Shown one piece after another: positions 15,533 to 30,056 of a DNA stretch of 64,000 nucleotides. The stretch's first letter is position 1. Each line of letters begins with the position of its first letter. The stretch spans positions 1 through 64,000 of IMG/VR virus record IMGVR_UViG_3300046543_000386; one strand, written 5' to 3'. This DNA is from a virus. The translations under genes and the position numbers were made by a program. The notes beneath the pieces are model-generated. The model was not told the origin of the DNA. It searched no databases and saw only the letters and a list, made by a program, of their open reading frames with translations.

Positions 15533-18500
15533 TCATCCCCCCGGGTTGAAATAGCGGCCCATATTATCCACGCCATACCGATCTCGGAACAACCTATCAA
15601 TCTGTTTCTGCGTGCCCTTGCCGCTCTGGATCAGATCCCAGGCTTTCTTCATCTCGGGATCGAGCAGAGCGCGCTTGATGGCGGTCGCCTCTGCGTTGTA
15701 CTGCGACTGCGGATTGCGCTCTTCGAAGGCCCGTTCGAAGTTGTTGCCATAGATGCGGATTGGCCCAGGTCCGTAATGGGGCGCGTATTGCTGCTTATCC
15801 AATGCGCGCTGATTGCCAGAGGCAAACGTCCCAGCGATTTCCGCCGCCGCTTGCGGCGTCATCTGCCGGTTGGGGAATGCGGCCATAAGCTCGTTAAGCG
15901 CTCCTAATGATCTCTGATCGCCCAGCCGCGCCCGGTCGGAACCGTTGATCGCGTTCAGCTTGCGGCTGATATCTTGCAGCGTGTCAGCATCCCCGAACCC
16001 TTCGAAGTCAGGGAGTATTGCTTTTGCGTAAGTATTCACCGTCTTGAGTATGGCGGAGCGCGTTTCGCTTTGCGCTCCGGGGGCGTTCAGAACCCGCTGC
16101 GCCCAGTTCACGTCATTCGGCGGCGCGGTCAGAGACTGCAACAGCGGCACCAGGGTGGGACGCGCGGCACGTGACATATCTGCGGCGTCGCCAATGGCGT
16201 GTATCTTATTGACAGAGTCCGCCTGATATTTTTCGGTCATGCCGGGAGGGGCACTCATCGCCGTGCGCCTGTCTTCGTCCGCATAAGCGTCGGTATTGCC
16301 GCCAACATTCACCCCGGACAACGGCACGGGTGTGGCCGGGCGCGGGGTCGTGTCAATCGGCTGGCCGCTCCCAGGCTGCGCGGTGGCAGAGCCTGGAGCG
16401 CTCCCTACCGCCGCCCCGCCACCTTCTCCGCTCCTCGTGTAGCGCTCCTGATGCGCCAGGAAGTCGGATGTCGGAATGAGTTTGTTCCTGCGGTCTACGT
16501 TGTCGTAAACCTCGGTCATGTAGCCTTCCGAAGTTCCCGGCATGTAGAACGACGACGCCCGGCGGTTCGCCTGCTGCTGCGCCGTAGTCTTGGCCGCTTG
16601 TGCCGCACGCTCCTGCATCTGGCTCTGCACGTTCTCATAGGCGCCAGCGGCGCCGCCGATGCCTTGCAGGATGGCGCTACCCAGGTAGCGGCTGGGCGAG
16701 GACGCCATGGTGCCGATGCCGGTGAGCAGCGGCATCAGCCAGTCCTGATTGCGACTGATCCAGCCCGGCTTCTCGTCTCCCCCGCCCTGCTGCTGTTGCT
16801 GCTGTGGCTGCTGCTGCGGCGGTGGCACCAAGCCTGCGGGGGCGGCAGCAGGTGCCGCGCCAAGCCAGGGCTGATTGCCGGGAGGGGGCGCAGGAGGCGC
16901 CTGGGGGCCAGGGGCGGGCGCCTGGGGGGAGAACCCGTCAGCCGTGCCAAACCGCCCCACACGCTGATCCACGCCCGCCGCAGGGGGTGGTGCGCCACTG
17001 CCCGTGCTGCCCACCATGAACGCGGGCTGGCCATCGACCGTGGCACCCGGCGCTGACGGCTGCCCCCAGGTATTGGGCACGCCCCCGCCAAGCCCTGGCG
17101 CGGGGATGCTGGGGGCGTTGGCGGCGTAATCGAACCCGGCACCCACCGGGGTGTAGCCACGCCCGGCACGTGCCGCTTCCAGGCTGCGCGCGTTCAACTG
17201 GTCCGCGACGTTGTCATTGCCCGCCAACCCCGGCCGGGGCGCGGCAGGTGCCGCAGGCGCGCCAGCGGCTGTGGTTGCAGGCGCACCCGGCTTGGCCGCG
17301 ACGGCAGGCGCCGCAGGGACTGCCGGTGCAGCAGGGACTGCCGGTGCGGGGGTCGCGGGCTTGCCGGGCGCTCCCGCGTTCGTCGGCGGGGGAATCTCGT
17401 CTTTTTGCGGGAACAGGATATTCCGCAGCTTAAACCCGGCCTCCTCCACCGGATTTTGCGGTGAATAGGGTGCGTTTTTGGCCGCCGCCATCTGCGCTGG
17501 CGTGGGCGGCACGCCCGCCGGGCCGCTCTTTTCGTCAGGCTTCGCGGCGCCCAGGCCAAGTTCCAGCGCTCTCGCCCTGGTTGACGCCTGCTCGCCTTCA
17601 CGTTCATGCGGCGCCAGCCCTGGCTGGATGGCCGGGGTCCATTCCTGCGCCGCTGGCGGCTTGTCCTCGAAATGAGGTGCTGGCGGGCGCACGGCGGTGT
17701 TGCCAGGAACAATTGCACGCCCCCAGCGCGCCAGCTTGTCATCGAAATTCGGCCCCGCCATCCCTCGGCTGGCCATGATGGCTTCGACGGTGTCGCGATC
17801 CGTGCCGTAGCGCTGGGGATAGCGCCACGCCTCGCCAAATTGATCGCGGTTCCAATTTGCCGTCTGAAATTCAAACGGCTTGCTGGGGTCGAAATCCGCC
17901 TGCGGCCCCTGTCCGGGGGGCAGCGGTGGCGGCGGCTTGAGTGTCCGCTTTATTTCCCCCGTATCAGGGTCGCGATATTCCACCGTGTCATCCGGCCCCG
18001 GCGGGCGTTCGTCAGGGGTCGCCATCCTGACCTTGGGCACAAGGCCGGGCGTCGGCGTGACGGCCTCGCTCGGCGGATCTCTCCGCGCTTGCGCTTCCTT
18101 GGTACCTTCAACCACCGTGGGTTCGACCATCCGGCGCGACACCGCCGCCGGATCTTCTTTAAGGATCGCTGTATCTGGTTTGGCCTCGGGCAGCGGCTCG
18201 GCCTCACTGGGTACCGCCTGCGGCGGCAGCGAGCGCGGCACCAGACCCCGGTTTGACTCCAGATTGGGGTCAACGTCGGGGGTGCTAGGAAGCTCGCTGA
18301 TCCACTGCGCGTCGGTGTTGTCGTCCGCCGTGGGGCTGCCACCTTCACGGAATTTGCGCCGCCTGCGAGCCTTGATGTAGCCGCCGCTCTTCGCCAGCGC
18401 CACGAGCAGCAGGGGCGCCACTTCCGCAGCGGTGGCAGCACCTGCCGTTGCCGCCGCCGTGGTACCTGCCGCCGCAGCCGCAGCCGCTTCTGAGGCCGCC

Positions 18501-21500
18501 GCCGCTGCCGCCGCCGTGGCGGCTTCGCCCGCCCCCGCGCCCGCGCCCGCCGCAGCGGCGTCGCCAGCAGCCCCGGCGGCGGCGTTGGACGCCATCATCG
18601 TGGAAGGTGCCGCCGCCTCGGCCGTAGATCCCGCCAGACCCCCTGGAACCTCGCCCGCCTCGGCCACAGGCGGCGTGGGCGGCGTGGGCAGCGGCGCCGC
18701 GTTCATGGGGGGTGAAGCGCCGCCGGGCGGCCCCAGCGGCTCTGCCGTGACCGGTGTGGTGGGGCTAGGCGCCCCCAGCGGCTCCGATGTGACCGGCGTG
18801 GTGGGCGCGGCATTGCCGGGCGCCACTGACGGGTTCGTGCCGGGCGAGGTCTTGCCCAGGAAATTGCGGCCAAACCAATCCGATTCGTAAATATTCTTGC
18901 CGGTCTTTCCCATCTGCACGGCTTGATTGGCGGTGCTGATGGTCTGCCCCGCGCCACCGCTTGGCGGCGCGTGCGGCAATTGCGCCACCTGCAAGGCACG
19001 ATCCTTGTGCTTGTCGTCCGTCACGCCAGCTTGCCCCATATAGCCGCCTTCGTCCTGGCTGTAGGGCAAGCCGCCACCCGCCAGCCCGACGCGTCCGCCA
19101 TGGGCCTTGCCGAACAACATGCTCTGGAATGTCTGCGTGATCCCCGGCCCCTCGGGCGGCGGCGGCGGCGCCTTCATCAGTTCCTTCCGCTCGCCGTCGG
19201 TCAGATCGTCAATGCCGGGCTGATCCATGTAGCCGCCACCAGCCAGCCCGACCCGGCCGCCAGCGGCACTGCCAAACACGTCGTGGTATTTATCGCTCAC
19301 CCAATTGGTCGCCTGATCCCACAGGCTCGGATCGGGTGCCGTAGTAGCGGTCGCGGGCGCCGCCGTGGATGGGGTGGCAGGCGCGGGAGGTGCCAAGCCC
19401 GGCGCGGGCGTCGAGGGCGCTCCTGGCGTGGTCGTGCCGATGATTTTGTTCTTGTCCTTGTCGTCCCAGATATCCTTGCTGCTCTTGTAGAGCTTGGTGA
19501 GATCATTGGCGGTCGAGACGCCCTCTTTAGCCCCCGCACCAGGGTCCGATGCCTTGGGAAGGTCCGCCGTCAGCAGCTTGCGTGTGGGCGGCGCGCCATC
19601 GGTCGGCACGTAGCCGGGCTTCTTGCCGCTGTACAGGCCGGTCTGCCAGCCCTTCATGATGGGGGAAGCGTAAGGATCTACGGCTTCAGCTTGGCCGCCG
19701 CTGGCGCGCACCAGCCCGCCCCGGTAATTGCCGCCACCGCCGCCGCCCTCGCTGCCCGTCCAGTTATCGTGCGCGTCAAGGTTCACGGGCGCCGCTACCG
19801 GGGCAGGATCAGGCGCCTTGGCGGCAGGCGCCGCCGCCTCGGGGGCTTTCGCGACCGGCGCCAGGGCGGCCGGATCAGGCCCCTTCAAGGGCGCGACCGG
19901 CGTGCTCGCGGCGGGGGTGGGCTGGGCAGGCGCCGGGGTTCCGGCTTCAGGTACCGGCGGCAGGTTCCCGCCCGCCACCCCCGCCACCGGATCGGCTTTC
20001 AGCCGGGCGAAGGAATCCTTCGACGTGTCGGCGTAAGCGCTGACGGCCTTGTTCAGATCGGCCATGGAAAAACTCGGCAGGCTGGCATCATCCAAGGAGG
20101 CGCCAAGCTTGGGCAGGCTGCCACTGACCGGCCCCGGCGAGGGCGGCAAGCTCGCAAAGGCCTTGTCCACCGCACCGGTATAGTTTCCGGCGGCAAGCCC
20201 GAGATCCGGCCAATCGCCGGGCACGGCACCACCGCCAGCGGCAAAGCCCGGCCTGCAATTCGCCGCCTGCACATTGGCGGGGATCGGGGTGCTCGATGCC
20301 GACGTCGTGCCCTTGGGGGTGTTGCTGATGGCGGGTGGCATGGTTGCCTGGGCCGCCTGAGAATTTGCCGCCTGCTGCGCGGAACTGAAGCTGCTCATCA
20401 CGTCTTGCGGGACCGGAGTGCCCGGCGCCGATGTCGTGCCCTTGGGGGTGTTGCTGACGGGCGGGCTGGGCCTCCCGGTGAAGGAGTTCATCAGGTCGGG
20501 CGGGATCATGGTGCTGGTGGGGGATGCCGTGCCCTTGCCAAGGGCGCTGCCGCCCATGGCGAAATGCCCGCGCTCGGCGGCGCCCCGCGTCGCCTCGTCG
20601 TAATCCACCATCTTGTAGCCATGCGCGCCCAGGCCGACCGCGTCCGGGTGATGCCGCTCAGTATCCTGCGCCGACAGGCCGATCTGATGCCTCGGATCGC
20701 CCTTGTAACGGAACTTGATGATGTTCTGCCCGTCGAAGGTTTTGCCGATAGGCTCGATGTCTTCCTTCAGCCGCTCATCGGAGAAGAACGACGACGACTG
20801 CGACCCCGTGGTTGACGACCCCGACAGCGCGCCCGTGCCCTCCGCGATGTTGGCGAGGAACTGCGAGGTCTGGAACGGATAAGCCTGCTGCTGGAGGAAC
20901 TGGTTGTAGAGCGCCGACAGCCCGGCCTGATTGGTTTGCTGCTGTACCTGCCCGGCCGCCATCTGCGCCTGCGCGCCCTGCAATCCCGCCGTCTGCGACC
21001 CGGTGCCAAGATCCGCCAACTGCTTAGAGGTGTTGGCGCCCTCCGTGTATAGCTGGTTGCCTAGCGCCGCCTGCTGCTGCGCCGTGGTGGCGCCCTGGCC
21101 AAACGATTGCTGCGCCGTGGTGCCCAGCCCCTGCGCAAGCTGGTTGTAAAGCCCCGATTCCTGCCCGGCGAGTTGCCCGTAGCCTTGCGCCGTCTGCGCC
21201 CCCTGGCCGTAAGCCTGCTGGCCGATATTGGCAAGCTGCTGCCCGGTGCCGGTCATCTGCGAGTAAAGCTGCTGGCCGGTATTGGCCATCGCCTGCCGGT
21301 TGGCCTGCGAGGCGGCAAGCTGCTGCCCCTGCTGCTGGGCCGCCGTGTTCTGCGCCTGGGTATATCCCGATTGCAGAACATTCGCGAGTTGCTGCTGGTT
21401 GGCCATGTTCTGCTGGTAGCCAAGATTGGCCTGCGCTACCCCCGCGCGGTCGCCACCAAAGGCGCCTGCTTTGATGGCATCACCCTTCAGCCCCGATTGC

Positions 21501-22108
21501 TGCTGCGCGTTCTGCATCTGTTGCGCGTTCAGCAGCGAGTTCACCACGTTGCCCATGTAGGGCGACATGTATTGATTGGTGTTCAGCGCCCCGGGATCGA
21601 CCTGTTGGGCGCCCGCCATGGTGAACGGCGTGGCCGCCGCCAGCCCGCCCGTGACGGCCTGCGTGGCCGCCTGATTGTAAGCCGATCCGGTCTGCTGGGC
21701 GCCCTGGTAGCCCTGCCCTGACGCCGTGAGCCAGGGCTGCGCGCTGTTGGCGGCGTTGTAGTATTGCCCGACCGCCTGCCCCTCCAGACCCTGCGCCTGC
21801 CCATAGGCGTTGCCTATCGTGTTCTGCGACGCCGTGATGTAGGGCGTGGCCCCTTGCTGGGCCGCGTTCAATATATTCGTCGCCGCGCCGAAGAATGGCT
21901 GCGCCTGCCCGGCATACTGGTTGGTGTTGTTGATCGCCGCCTGCTGCGTCCCCGTCAGATTGGCGACGAACGCGTTGGGATCGTCGGAATACTTCTGGAA
22001 CGGCGTCTTGGCCGCGTTCTCGGCCGTGGCATTGACGGAATTATACCGCGCCATCACCTCCGGAGGGATCTGGATGGTCGATGATGAGTTGGTGTTCTTA
22101 CCGCCCAT
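15533..22108 (-). CDS. giant low-complexity virion protein with internal S74-like domain
   Basis: A 2191-residue protein. Residues 1-440 are Gln/Ala/Asn-rich with repeated GQQLY/AQGYGQLA units. Residues 443-510 read SDERLKEDIEPIG, IIKFRYKG, HQIGLSAQDTERHHPDAVG: an S74/intramolecular-chaperone-like domain, normally C-terminal. About 1,680 residues follow: Pro/Ala linkers, the repeated NTPKGTTSA box, GGRVGLAGG motifs, an Ala-rich hydrophobic stretch ending GGYIKARRRRKFREGG, a poly-Gln patch, and a folded C-terminal region (about 1940-2191). Probably an internal/ejection or tail protein; the mode of cleavage is inferred. One of the largest genes in the window. Confidence 0.7.
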   Translation of the reverse strand: MGGKNTNSSSTIQIPPEVMARYNSVNATAENAAKTPFQKYSDDPNAFVANLTGTQQAAINNTNQYAGQAQPFFGAATNILNAAQQGATPYITASQNTIGNAYGQAQGLEGQAVGQYYNAANSAQPWLTASGQGYQGAQQTGSAYNQAATQAVTGGLAAATPFTMAGAQQVDPGALNTNQYMSPYMGNVVNSLLNAQQMQNAQQQSGLKGDAIKAGAFGGDRAGVAQANLGYQQNMANQQQLANVLQSGYTQAQNTAAQQQGQQLAASQANRQAMANTGQQLYSQMTGTGQQLANIGQQAYGQGAQTAQGYGQLAGQESGLYNQLAQGLGTTAQQSFGQGATTAQQQAALGNQLYTEGANTSKQLADLGTGSQTAGLQGAQAQMAAGQVQQQTNQAGLSALYNQFLQQQAYPFQTSQFLANIAEGTGALSGSSTTGSQSSSFFSDERLKEDIEPIGKTFDGQNIIKFRYKGDPRHQIGLSAQDTERHHPDAVGLGAHGYKMVDYDEATRGAAERGHFAMGGSALGKGTASPTSTMIPPDLMNSFTGRPSPPVSNTPKGTTSAPGTPVPQDVMSSFSSAQQAANSQAAQATMPPAISNTPKGTTSASSTPIPANVQAANCRPGFAAGGGAVPGDWPDLGLAAGNYTGAVDKAFASLPPSPGPVSGSLPKLGASLDDASLPSFSMADLNKAVSAYADTSKDSFARLKADPVAGVAGGNLPPVPEAGTPAPAQPTPAASTPVAPLKGPDPAALAPVAKAPEAAAPAAKAPDPAPVAAPVNLDAHDNWTGSEGGGGGGNYRGGLVRASGGQAEAVDPYASPIMKGWQTGLYSGKKPGYVPTDGAPPTRKLLTADLPKASDPGAGAKEGVSTANDLTKLYKSSKDIWDDKDKNKIIGTTTPGAPSTPAPGLAPPAPATPSTAAPATATTAPDPSLWDQATNWVSDKYHDVFGSAAGGRVGLAGGGYMDQPGIDDLTDGERKELMKAPPPPPEGPGITQTFQSMLFGKAHGGRVGLAGGGLPYSQDEGGYMGQAGVTDDKHKDRALQVAQLPHAPPSGGAGQTISTANQAVQMGKTGKNIYESDWFGRNFLGKTSPGTNPSVAPGNAAPTTPVTSEPLGAPSPTTPVTAEPLGPPGGASPPMNAAPLPTPPTPPVAEAGEVPGGLAGSTAEAAAPSTMMASNAAAGAAGDAAAAGAGAGAGEAATAAAAAAASEAAAAAAAGTTAAATAGAATAAEVAPLLLVALAKSGGYIKARRRRKFREGGSPTADDNTDAQWISELPSTPDVDPNLESNRGLVPRSLPPQAVPSEAEPLPEAKPDTAILKEDPAAVSRRMVEPTVVEGTKEAQARRDPPSEAVTPTPGLVPKVRMATPDERPPGPDDTVEYRDPDTGEIKRTLKPPPPLPPGQGPQADFDPSKPFEFQTANWNRDQFGEAWRYPQRYGTDRDTVEAIMASRGMAGPNFDDKLARWGRAIVPGNTAVRPPAPHFEDKPPAAQEWTPAIQPGLAPHEREGEQASTRARALELGLGAAKPDEKSGPAGVPPTPAQMAAAKNAPYSPQNPVEEAGFKLRNILFPQKDEIPPPTNAGAPGKPATPAPAVPAAPAVPAAPAVAAKPGAPATTAAGAPAAPAAPRPGLAGNDNVADQLNARSLEAARAGRGYTPVGAGFDYAANAPSIPAPGLGGGVPNTWGQPSAPGATVDGQPAFMVGSTGSGAPPPAAGVDQRVGRFGTADGFSPQAPAPGPQAPPAPPPGNQPWLGAAPAAAPAGLVPPPQQQPQQQQQQGGGDEKPGWISRNQDWLMPLLTGIGTMASSPSRYLGSAILQGIGGAAGAYENVQSQMQERAAQAAKTTAQQQANRRASSFYMPGTSEGYMTEVYDNVDRRNKLIPTSDFLAHQERYTRSGEGGGAAVGSAPGSATAQPGSGQPIDTTPRPATPVPLSGVNVGGNTDAYADEDRRTAMSAPPGMTEKYQADSVNKIHAIGDAADMSRAARPTLVPLLQSLTAPPNDVNWAQRVLNAPGAQSETRSAILKTVNTYAKAILPDFEGFGDADTLQDISRKLNAINGSDRARLGDQRSLGALNELMAAFPNRQMTPQAAAEIAGTFASGNQRALDKQQYAPHYGPGPIRIYGNNFERAFEERNPQSQYNAEATAIKRALLDPEMKKAWDLIQSGKGTQKQIDRLFRDRYGVDNMGRYFNPGG
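20304..20457 (-). repeat. tandem in-gene repeat (NTPKGTTSA box)
   Basis: A 25-base sequence beginning GTCGTGCCCTTGGGGGTG occurs at 20304-20328 and 20433-20457, part of a roughly 129-base tandem unit encoding the NTPKGTTSA box with flanking P(V/I)P. A third, degraded unit lies near 20511-20550. In-frame repeat expansion within the giant virion gene. Confidence 0.75.
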
Positions 22109-26818: not shown

Positions 26819-26838
26819 GGCCAGGGTCCGCCATAAAA

Positions 26839-26873
26839 TGTGGGACGGCAGCCCATTAGGCTACCATCCCACA
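26839..26873 (-). terminator. intrinsic terminator of the lysis/PEP-CTERM transcript
   Basis: On the minus strand TGTGGGA and TCCCACA pair, enclosing a second AGCC/GGCT stem, and the RNA continues TTTTATGG. It separates the fibre-lysis-PEP island from the adaptor-hub-ejection genes, so the latter probably rely on readthrough or a separate promoter. Confidence 0.75.
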
Positions 26874-26890
26874 CCGTAGTCACGCAAAGA

Positions 26891-26980
26891 TCAGTCCCAA
26901 TCTCCGCGCCAGACCCGGAACATGAACGTCAGCCCGGCGACGACGACGCCCAAGGCCAGGATCAGAAACAGGGTCCACAT
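26891..26980 (-). CDS. 29-residue single-TM peptide
   Basis: Reads MWTLFLILALGVVVAG then a basic, Trp-containing tail ending DWD: one membrane span with a short cytoplasmic end. Its ATG overlaps the stop of the preceding tiny frame (TGATG). Such peptides occur in phage lysis regions, but coding status cannot be proven by eye. Confidence 0.4.
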   Translation of the reverse strand: MWTLFLILALGVVVAGLTFMFRVWRGDWD

Positions 26981-27063
26981 CAGCGATAGTAGAGCGTCGC
27001 GGTGCAGATCGTGGCCACGACCCCCACCGCGAAGCCCACCAGCAAGCCTATGCTAAACCACAC
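26980..27063 (-). CDS. 27-residue single-TM peptide
   Basis: A GTG-initiated frame (WFSIGLLVGFAVGVVATIC...) with one hydrophobic span and a YYR end. It starts inside the last codons of the PEP-CTERM gene and is coupled to the next 29-residue frame. No clear Shine-Dalgarno; tentative. Confidence 0.3.
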   Translation of the reverse strand: MWFSIGLLVGFAVGVVATICTATLYYR

Positions 27064-27778
27064 GACGCCGACGCAGGATGGTCATGCCAACAAGGCCGAC
27101 CCCCAGCAACGCCATCGAGGCGGGTTCCGGCGTGTCCACAGCGCTGAGGATAGGCACGATGTAGAAGGACTCGCCGCCGTCCACGGCATGATCCCAGCTT
27201 GCCTGGAATATCAGCCGGTCGCCCGGCTGGATGATACCATTGCCGAGATTGAAACCGGTGATCAGATAGTCGGCTGAACCGTTGCCGTTACGGATGTCGG
27301 GCATTGCGAAATCCGTGCTCAGGTCGAAGATGATCCTGCTGCCAGGATCAGCATCGAGATCGATCAGCCTGAAGGCGGTCAACACTTCAGACTTGGCCCC
27401 CGTGGAGTTGACATCCACGGCCACGCCAAAGGTAAGGCCGAGATCGCCCAGTCCCTGAAGCAAGGAGATAAGCTGGCTACCCGTGTAGGGTGTGCCCTGG
27501 ACATCGTTCCCGAACGCGCCGGTCAAGTTGGACGAGAACAAGTTGAAGCTGCTGTCGTTGCCGGTGCTGACGAAGTTGTTGAAGCCAAAGCCTGCGGGCT
27601 GACCGCCGACGTTGGTAGCGCAGATGATGCACGGATCGGAGATCGACTGCGGTACCACCTGAGCATCACTCAACGCCGTGATGGTCAGGTTGTCGAACGC
27701 ATCCGCGTGGGCGGGGGCGACCTGGGCGAAGGCGGCAATCGCTACCGCCATCACCCCTGCGACGAGATAGTTCTTCAT
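27053..27778 (-). CDS. secreted PEP-CTERM protein (second of pair)
   Basis: A 241-residue protein. Residues 1-26 form a Sec signal peptide (KNYLVAGVMAVAIAAFAQVA ending AHADA). The body is Gly/Asn/Asp-rich and beta-structured with a CIIC pair near residue 50. The C-terminus is a canonical PEP-CTERM sorting signal: TPEPAS, hydrophobic span ALLGVGLVGMTIL, then RRRR. In bacteria an exosortase recognises this signal and links the protein to the envelope or exopolysaccharide. Such a protein is highly unusual in a phage. The start overlaps the upstream PEP gene's stop (ATGA). Confidence 0.85.
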   Translation of the reverse strand: MKNYLVAGVMAVAIAAFAQVAPAHADAFDNLTITALSDAQVVPQSISDPCIICATNVGGQPAGFGFNNFVSTGNDSSFNLFSSNLTGAFGNDVQGTPYTGSQLISLLQGLGDLGLTFGVAVDVNSTGAKSEVLTAFRLIDLDADPGSRIIFDLSTDFAMPDIRNGNGSADYLITGFNLGNGIIQPGDRLIFQASWDHAVDGGESFYIVPILSAVDTPEPASMALLGVGLVGMTILRRRRVV

Positions 27779-28494
27779 GCCTGCCGCCGACGATAAGCCG
27801 CACCCAGGCCGACAAGACCGGCGCCCAGGATCAGCATGGAGGCAGGCTCAGGTACCGCTGCCGCGAAGAGTTCAGTCTGGCCGCGATTGACCAACTGCCC
27901 GCCTGCCACCAGCGTGCCCGACACGCGCTCAGTCATCGAGAACGGCCCGGCGATGGCGAGGTTGCCAAAATCGGCGGCGCTATAGCCGTCAGCAGCCAGG
28001 GCCGCCGTCTTTTGGAAGGTCGAAAGCAGCACGCCAGGGGTATCGTTGGCGTTGTCGGCGCCCTGAGCGTTGGCGGCGTCGGCATACCATTGCATCAGCA
28101 CGTCGGAGCCAACCGCTTGCTGCCACGTGCCGGAACCGGCGACGTTCCACGCCGAAACCGGACCAAGGAAGCCGGTGTCGGAGACGGTGAAGGTCACCGG
28201 AACGGAGATGCCCAGCGTGTTGATCAGCGACGTGCTGCTGGTGTTCAGGATGTCCGTGCCGGGGTTGGCCGCAGTGCCCGTCGAGGTTTGAATCGACGTG
28301 TTGACCAGAATGCCCCCGATGGTCTGGTTGGCAATCTGGATCGTGCCGGTCGAGAGGTCGGTGTCGCAGAGCGCGTTATCGACGCAGGAAAAGTTTGTGT
28401 TGCCGAACGTGGCCGAGATCTGCAACACGGCATGGGCTGGACCGGCGAGAGCCAGCCCTCCCAACGCCGTGGCCGCAAAGAGTAGATTTCGCAT
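27775..28494 (-). CDS. secreted PEP-CTERM protein (first of pair)
   Basis: A 239-residue protein. Signal peptide at 1-22 (LLFAATALGGLALAG then PAHA). The body contains CVDNALC and many Thr/Gly/Asn residues in beta strands, a layout typical of bacterial PEP-CTERM extracellular proteins. The C-terminus reads VPEPASM, hydrophobic LILGAGLVGLGAA, then YRRRQA. AAGGGAA precedes the ATG, and a 129-base upstream gap could carry a dedicated promoter. The body is not obviously homologous to its partner's, so this is not a simple duplication. Confidence 0.87.
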   Translation of the reverse strand: MRNLLFAATALGGLALAGPAHAVLQISATFGNTNFSCVDNALCDTDLSTGTIQIANQTIGGILVNTSIQTSTGTAANPGTDILNTSSTSLINTLGISVPVTFTVSDTGFLGPVSAWNVAGSGTWQQAVGSDVLMQWYADAANAQGADNANDTPGVLLSTFQKTAALAADGYSAADFGNLAIAGPFSMTERVSGTLVAGGQLVNRGQTELFAAAVPEPASMLILGAGLVGLGAAYRRRQA

Positions 28495-28623
28495 TGTGGT
28501 TCCCTTCTTTACACCGCCACATGGCGGCAGGGGATTTGATGCTCGTATCGTGCCACTGACAGATGTCAGCCAAAAACCCGTTTGTCGTGTGGTGTAAGGA
28601 TACCACAGTGTAAAGTTTTCCGA
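28495..28623 (-). promoter_or_regulatory. control region upstream of the PEP-CTERM genes
   Basis: A 129-base gap between the endolysin stop and the PEP gene. It holds CCGCCACATGGCGG (28514-28527), the 14-bp palindrome CTGACAGATGTCAG (28556-28569), and three GTGTAA(A/G)G-type boxes (28592-28599, 28608-28615 and, inverted, 28507-28514). A weak minus-strand promoter TTGGCT-18-GATACG overlaps the palindrome. None of the GTTGAC operators is present, so control looks independent of the early regulon. Confidence 0.4.
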
Positions 28624-29331
28624 CTAGGAGACTACCTGATTGACCTCGACGCGGACCCCTGGCGGGGCGGCGATGGTGACCACCACGACGTGCTGGGGAC
28701 CCGGCATCGGGATGGCGGGTTTCTCGGGTGGCGCCGTGCCTGCCCACTGCGCCTTCAGAAGGTGATCATCCACCCCGGAGCGGTTGCAATCCACATCCCC
28801 CGACACGCCGGGGGCTGCGCCCTTGTCGGTGTACTGCCAGAGGAAATACCGGGGCCAGATCTGCTTTGGCCAATCCGGCTGCGGCGCGCTGGTGTATTGC
28901 GCCACCCATAGCTGGTGCTCCTTCAGCCAGTGGATCACGGTGTCGCCCACCTGCTCCTTCAGCACGTGCCCCGAATAGATCACCGCCCGACGCTTGGTGA
29001 GCGTCCAGATCGCGGCCAGGAACTCGCGGAGGTCATCGAGGCTGACGCCGGTATCCTCGTGATCGGCACATATCAGATCGTCATTGCCGGGCATGGCGAC
29101 CTTCAGGAAACGCTGTGCCTGCGCGTGCATGTCACCGGGGCGCAGGAAATGGTACGCCCCCCACAGCAACCCGGCATGCCGGGCATCGACCCGGCGCTGG
29201 CTATAGGTCGGATCGGTGTAATCGTCCGACTCGGTCGCCTTGTGGATAACCCCCAGAATCCCAGCCTTGCGAATCGCGGCAAACGACTCGACCCCGTTGT
29301 GGTGGCTGAGGTCTAAGACATCAGTGCTCAT
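28624..29331 (-). CDS. GH25 muramidase endolysin
   Basis: A 235-residue glycosyl hydrolase family 25 lysozyme that cuts the MurNAc-GlcNAc bond. Visible: VLDLSHHNG (5-13, catalytic Asp region), GVIHKATES (about 27-35), GLLWGAYHFLRPGD, LICADHEDTG with the acidic pair, and FLWQYTDKG (about 165-173). There is no signal peptide or membrane anchor, so it needs a holin. The start overlaps the upstream gene (ATGA). The C-terminal Pro-rich extension (195-235) lacks a recognisable wall-binding repeat. Confidence 0.9.
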   Translation of the reverse strand: MSTDVLDLSHHNGVESFAAIRKAGILGVIHKATESDDYTDPTYSQRRVDARHAGLLWGAYHFLRPGDMHAQAQRFLKVAMPGNDDLICADHEDTGVSLDDLREFLAAIWTLTKRRAVIYSGHVLKEQVGDTVIHWLKEHQLWVAQYTSAPQPDWPKQIWPRYFLWQYTDKGAAPGVSGDVDCNRSGVDDHLLKAQWAGTAPPEKPAIPMPGPQHVVVVTIAAPPGVRVEVNQVVS

Positions 29332-29672
29332 GGGTTCTTTTCCCTGTTGAGGTCTTGTTGCAGCCGGGTCAGCAGAACCCCTTGGGTCTGCTGGGTTGCC
29401 GATAGGTCGGCCATCTTCTGCTGCATCTGAAGCAGGCCTTCAAGGATGCGGTCGGCCCGCGCGATCACCGCGTCCACCTTGGCATTGGCGGTCTGCACCG
29501 GTCCCGACCCATGGGTTTCCAGGGCCGCGATACGAAGCTCATGGCTGACCGCTTGCTGGCGCATCGTGCCGATCTCAGCGCCAATGATGAACACGTAGAG
29601 GCCGACAGATACGGCAGCCCCCAGCACGCCGATGGTCAGCCAGCTTGGCCGTTTTGGCGGGTCCTCTGCCAC
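29328..29672 (-). CDS. membrane-anchored coiled-coil lysis protein
   Basis: A 114-residue protein with a cytoplasmic Pro/basic start (AEDPPKRPSW), one membrane span (about 12-33) and a periplasmic coiled coil (35-112) rich in Gln. This is the topology of inner-membrane spanins (Rz-like) and of some second holins. Coupled to the endolysin by an ATGA overlap. No lipoprotein o-spanin was found nested within it, so the exact role is not settled. Confidence 0.6.
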   Translation of the reverse strand: MAEDPPKRPSWLTIGVLGAAVSVGLYVFIIGAEIGTMRQQAVSHELRIAALETHGSGPVQTANAKVDAVIARADRILEGLLQMQQKMADLSATQQTQGVLLTRLQQDLNREKNP

Positions 29673-29729: not shown

Positions 29730-29930
29730 ATGAACATATTTGTGACGATGCCCATACGGATAACAACCGATCTTGCAGGACGAATAGACGAGTTTTGGCA
29801 CGAGCGTCGGCTGGTGAGCCGCGCTGCTGCCATTCGCGAATTGCTGGAACTCGGGCTGTCACGGGACCCTCAAGGGCGCCAGACCCACGAACCTCCCGCC
29901 CAAGAGCATATCCAAGAGGATCAGAACTAA
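29730..29930 (+). CDS. ribbon-helix-helix regulator, antisense to the lysis genes
   Basis: A 66-residue plus-strand protein. Residues 4-40 match the Arc/MetJ-type ribbon-helix-helix fold: strand IFVTMPIRIT, helix DLAGRIDEFWHER, turn and second helix SRAAAIRELLELGL. The C-terminus is polar (QEHIQEDQN). The start ATG 29730 follows AAGAGAT. It is the only plus-strand gene in the late region and overlaps the holin's 3' end by 72 bases on the opposite strand. It could regulate lysis or the PEP genes. Confidence 0.65.
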   Translation: MNIFVTMPIRITTDLAGRIDEFWHERRLVSRAAAIRELLELGLSRDPQGRQTHEPPAQEHIQEDQN

Positions 29931-30056
29931 TATAAGCGCCATTATCACTTGCACAATAACCGCAAACGGAGGCGGCAATGGCAGTAGTGTAATAATGTAA
30001 TACACCACCCCAAATATCAGGCATAAAATCAATATGTATATGAGCAACGAAATCAT
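29859..30056 (-). CDS. two-TM holin
   Basis: A 65-residue, very hydrophobic protein with spans at about 3-25 and 31-52 separated by LLPLPPPF, and a short tail (GGRFVGLAPLRVP). Size, two spans and position before the endolysin fit a class II-like holin. The ATG overlaps the tailspike stop (ATGA). Its 3' end lies antisense to the plus-strand RHH gene. Confidence 0.65.
   Translation of the reverse strand: MISLLIYILILCLIFGVVYYIITLLPLPPPFAVIVQVIMALILVLILLDMLLGGRFVGLAPLRVP

Follow-up and report, generated by a model that had tools for sequence, protein, structure and literature searches.

Why would a phage carry two adjacent genes for apparently secreted proteins that end in the sorting tails of the bacterial PEP-CTERM/exosortase pathway? 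The question arises in a window of 64,000 nt, the whole stretch of DNA analysed here, which belongs to the 66,753-base IMG/VR virus record IMGVR_UViG_3300046543_000386. The record has a podovirus-like gene set, comprising terminase, portal, major head protein, two tail/connector-type proteins and an ejection-type protein. A 2191-aa protein encoded at 15533-22108 gave virion-structural and weak ejection-protein matches and contains long Pro/Ala-rich and Gly-rich stretches. Roseobacter, Caulobacter and Pelagibacter phages are among the best public matches of its portal and terminase, a hint that the host may be an alphaproteobacterium; the tRNA genes of the record yielded nothing usable as a host signal. 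No integrase match was found in the record, and 9 of the 42 records examined have one. We favour a surface-modifying role for the two genes, which probably form a phage cargo operon, expressed and displayed by way of the PEP-CTERM/exosortase pathway of the host and modifying the envelope or the matrix.

The locus lies on the minus strand and runs from a 114-aa protein gene (29328-29672) through a GH25 endolysin gene (28624-29331; PF01183, 105 bits; PHROG endolysins), the two PEP genes, two micro-ORFs and a hairpin to the tail genes. By eye, the 114-aa protein has a single N-terminal hydrophobic stretch, and its homologues were found close to PEP2 genes across many unrelated phages. A 65-aa hydrophobic protein with two spans (29859-30056) looks holin-like by eye; several other phages with PEP2 also encode relatives of it (cluster C6). 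Directly downstream of the endolysin gene, PEP2 (27775-28494) encodes a predicted secreted PEP-CTERM protein of 239 aa, with its tail at about 27778-27858, and PEP1 (27053-27778) encodes one of 241 aa, with its tail at about 27056-27136. The start codon of PEP1 and the stop codon of PEP2 share a 4-base overlap, which suggests coupled translation and a joint function. Micro-ORF 1 (26980-27045, minus strand), for a small hydrophobic peptide, and micro-ORF 2 (26891-26980, minus strand), for a 29-aa hydrophobic peptide, overlap each other between PEP1 and the hairpin, and similar peptides, by amino-acid comparison, are present in the related contigs L010 and L011. The hairpin itself (26837-26875, minus strand), followed by ATTTTAT, is a probable terminator: its folding energy is -32.4 kcal/mol (z -5.0), shuffled sequences never did as well, and it is kept in two relatives, although it was absent from the output of a simple terminator scan.

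Both proteins carry a complete PEP-CTERM tail, as the original prediction held. PEP1 and PEP2 scored 29.9 and 28.7 bits with PF07589 (cut-off 20.7) and 25 and 20.5 bits with TIGR02595 (cut-off 16), and it was on failure in such profiles that the prediction was to fall. The N-termini are signal-peptide-like, and a hydrophobic stretch with an AxA-like site was seen by eye in all relatives. Among the 34 viral records compared (the window's own and 33 related ones), 29 have a PEP-CTERM tail above the cut-off. No match to exosortase (PF09721) was found in the whole 66,753-base record, in agreement with the earlier claim that the gene is absent, or in the 33 related viral records. Since the record encodes no exosortase, host machinery would be needed. 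In the bacterial genome G310 (L041, L047, L049, L051 and L052), at least seven PEP-CTERM genes are clustered and related to one another; by eye they look PepA-like.

The 129-base gap between the endolysin gene and PEP2 (28495-28623) had been taken for a control region, and it does contain a recognisable regulatory element; what had been overlooked is that its sequence matches the host PEP-CTERM regulon box. Upstream of most proteobacterial PEP-CTERM genes, a 17-nt motif that ends in TTTACA is separated by 32-92 nt from a sigma-54 motif, and PrsR is the presumed activator (Haft and colleagues, 2006; PMC1569441); dependence on RpoN has been shown by experiment for one such gene, pepA (PMC9850573). 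In the window, motif 1, AGTCGGAAAACTTTACA (28609-28625, minus strand), the presumed PrsR site, overlaps the endolysin stop codon. Motif 2, TGGCACGATACGAGCAT (28539-28555, minus strand), is a sequence match to a sigma-54 type promoter with its -24 (GG) and -12 (GC) elements. When the box is defined as a TTTACA-ended motif, a 32-92 nt spacer and a GG/GC motif 23-221 nt from the start codon, the window falls within these limits, with a 53-nt spacer between the motifs and 45 nt from motif 2 to the PEP2 start. A sigma-70 promoter scan of the locus returned none. When the upstream regions of nine PEP2 genes are aligned, GG and GC ten bases apart are among the few invariant columns, and this spacing is the signature of sigma-54. 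A sigma-54-like site 30-75 nt before the start was present in 15 of 24 PEP2 genes and 18 of 347 control genes from the same loci, and the full box (TTTACA, spacer, GG-N10-GC) in 9 of the 24 and 2 of 1206 controls, figures that overstate independence because the pattern was first noticed on the very sequences used to test it and several upstream regions are related. The full box is missing from 15 of the 24 PEP2 genes and was found before none of 50 PEP1-only genes, before which the sigma-54 site was not enriched either. Two sampled bacterial PEP-CTERM genes have the same box layout. Because the operon carries a copy of the proteobacterial box, host sigma-54 and PrsR would transcribe it.

The pair looks like inserted cargo with its own control region and terminator-like hairpin. 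The phage collection's best match, MW202675, has a head protein 86% and a portal 64% identical; its syntenic junction from endolysin to tail gene spans 77 bases, and the PEP genes are absent. The endolysin of MW202675 is of a different type from the GH25 endolysin of the window, so the exchange may have covered the entire lysis segment. Morons, and surface proteins of superinfection exclusion or lysogenic conversion such as T5 Llp and phage lipoproteins, are familiar phage cargo. Like these, the PEP pair looks like a small autonomous unit at a module boundary and is predicted to act at the cell surface; it has a promoter-like box and a terminator-like hairpin. It differs from them in bearing a predicted exosortase tag rather than a lipoprotein or membrane anchor, and in having a putative host regulon box rather than a phage promoter.

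Within IMG/VR, 275 stretches contain the PEP1 body, 80 loci of which were fetched, and 26 loci contain the PEP2 body. Judged by sequence, the PEP genes form a family that has moved among many unrelated phages, a point that the original prediction missed. The carriers have terminases that are 23-30% identical or of different families, and their PEP genes adjoin endolysin, terminase, portal, head, Erf-type recombination, exonuclease or DNA polymerase genes. PEP2 stands next to PEP1, or to the variant PEP1b, in 13 loci, some of them near-duplicates, and the overlap is exactly 4 bases in 11 of these (the window and ten others). A right-handed beta-helix protein (PF13229; L089:9024-10172) is a repeated neighbour of PEP1, in about nine viral loci. 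At the thresholds used, neither body matched any of 50,697 phage records or 72,556 plasmids, and two further PEP1 variants were likewise without a match among the isolate phages of the collection. No paper on phage PEP-CTERM proteins was found in the open-access literature. The view that no described phage group carries such genes thus holds for the isolate phages of the collection, which have neither PEP1 nor PEP2. The search for both bodies that had been proposed brought many viral relatives, but on the bacterial side distant relatives of PEP1 only: full-length homologues occur in 3 of 385 alphaproteobacterial genomes, and the two compared are 29-40% identical to phage members and chromosomal, with no obvious phage genes around them. 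For PEP2, a pattern scan of 84,980 bacterial species returned only a tail match and none to the body, and 398 Pseudomonadota gave C-terminal matches only; since these searches were pattern-based or sampled, such absence is not proof.

Within this family, tails and bodies have been exchanged. Five tail types occur on 33 non-redundant PEP1 bodies (PEP 15, GPxxGAG 8, PIPAA 6, PxPGAxWLF 3 and PExxTW 1), and the tree of these bodies calls for no fewer than 11 switches of tail type. The PEP1 of the window and that of L003 are sisters on the tree (support 100/99), yet their tails differ. Conversely, the DNA of PEP1b (L010, L011 and L018) is 88-95% identical to that of the window's PEP1 in the signal peptide and 81-88% in the tail, whereas the middle aligns at only 19-24% identity and yields no similarity that profiles detect; in these relatives the body has been replaced between a conserved signal peptide and a conserved tail. 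Such tail changes and middle replacement would follow from a tag that is important and has to suit the host, and we infer that tail types track the host exosortase. The eight GPxxGAG bodies (L003:8001-8720, L053:1694-2449, L067:8001-8753, L075:7929-8690, L091:8001-8744, L092:7959-8672, L096:7950-8699 and L123:3632-4375) end in PGPIVGAGxPG, a hydrophobic span and an Arg cluster. No NCBIfam sorting model matched the seven of the eight that were scanned, and a scan without a positive control found no such tail in 289 alphaproteobacterial genomes or in plasmids; GPxxGAG is possibly an uncatalogued sorting tail. Pairwise dN/dS values of 0.09-0.46 indicate purifying selection.

Taken as a cargo operon, the pair may work as follows. 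Host sigma-54 RNA polymerase and PrsR would transcribe the operon while the host makes its own PEP-CTERM proteins, and PEP2 and PEP1 would be translated in a coupled manner and act jointly. The products would leave by Sec and be retained in the inner membrane by their tails until the host exosortase cleaves them and passes them on, a step proposed from what is known of the pathway. At the surface, the predicted beta-sandwich bodies would settle on the envelope or the exopolysaccharide and alter either. The likeliest benefit, speculatively, is superinfection exclusion, which would protect an infected or lysogenic cell against competing phages; the main alternative, equally speculative in kind, is that matrix is held to the cell, as by host PepA, and the data accommodate both. 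Lysogenic conversion is a further candidate benefit.

This second benefit, in which displayed proteins bind exopolysaccharide to the cell and keep infected or lysogenic cells in dense aggregates, shares the display mechanism with our favoured reading and is a possibility that we regard as tentative. PepA ties exopolysaccharide to the cell in floc-forming bacteria, and when it is overexpressed, soluble polymer falls and bound polymer rises (PMC9850573; PMC9012009); the box would place the phage genes in the PepA regulon. Structure prediction points the same way for PEP2: its AlphaFold2 model (mean pLDDT 75.9) has a jelly-roll beta-sandwich body whose best VIA-align match is the surface glycan-binding protein 7kwc (Z 10.0, rmsd 3.2, 133 aligned), followed by a match to CBM61 (Z 8.5), and it thus resembles surface glycan-binding proteins and carbohydrate-binding modules, CBM4/16 included. 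However, identity to 7kwc is 5%, no Pfam CBM family matched PEP1 or PEP2, the likeness is one of fold only, and the PEP1 model (beta-rich body, mean pLDDT 81.3) has weak structural matches, with Z 7.5 at most and no clear fold match. Glycan binding by the two bodies is therefore a suggestion from a moderate match for PEP2 and a weak one for PEP1. Against matrix binding, PepA-like proteins have no homology to either body, and PEP1-only phages are without the box. PEP2 was also considered as a PepA homologue, for which HHalign gave no support.

Alternatively, the proteins could be membrane-tethered lysis accessories that act late with the endolysin on the envelope or matrix, independently of exosortase. 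The lysis-region setting originally described does hold in the window, where the PEP genes come after the endolysin and 114-aa protein genes, and a related order occurs in L010 and L011, reversed in L038; but many PEP1 copies elsewhere belong to early, recombination or packaging modules, the operon comes with a sigma-54-type box of its own, and lysis needs no exchange among tail types, which makes this role unlikely. About as improbable is a decoy that saturates the host exosortase with overproduced substrate and lessens display of host surface proteins such as receptors or defences: the conserved tails and variable bodies would suit it, but the bodies are under purifying selection and kept across distant phages, which a decoy does not need. 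Neutral pick-up of a host gene or an assembly chimera, with no phage role, is very improbable and already contradicted, for although distant chromosomal PEP1 homologues exist in the three alphaproteobacterial genomes, the genes are present in many phages with dN/dS well below 1, and the order endolysin-PEP2-PEP1-tail gene repeats independently in L010 and L011, IMG/VR contigs that come from other samples, which also removes the chimera at about 26.9-28.6 kb that had been named as a possible refutation.

The favoured cargo operon has counterparts in bacteria. With bacterial exosortase (EpsH/XrtA) substrates and their PrsK/PrsR/RpoN control (PMC1569441; PepA, PMC9850573), the pair has in common a signal-peptide-like N-terminus, the tripartite tail and the bipartite upstream box of TTTACA and sigma-54 motif (PMC1569441). 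It differs in being phage-encoded, in an overlapping pair with bodies unlike PepA and in a genome without exosortase, and some phage relatives bear other tails. With relatives in hundreds of sequences from uncultivated viruses, alteration of the host surface may be a widespread, undescribed phage strategy. We lean, with slightly less assurance than for the cargo operon, towards the view that diverse phages swap cassettes for exosortase-displayed surface proteins, fitted to the host by their tails, with the PEP2-PEP1 form placed under the host PrsR/sigma-54 regulon. If true, this would connect phages with a major surface-sorting pathway of Gram-negative bacteria, most of whose substrates have unknown roles. 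That the host PrsK/PrsR/RpoN system controls phage genes is a claim open to direct test through the predicted promoter, and phages that keep and re-tag such proteins would be natural test cases for the function of exosortase substrates, for the pairing of tail and exosortase, and for how phages shape flocs and biofilms.
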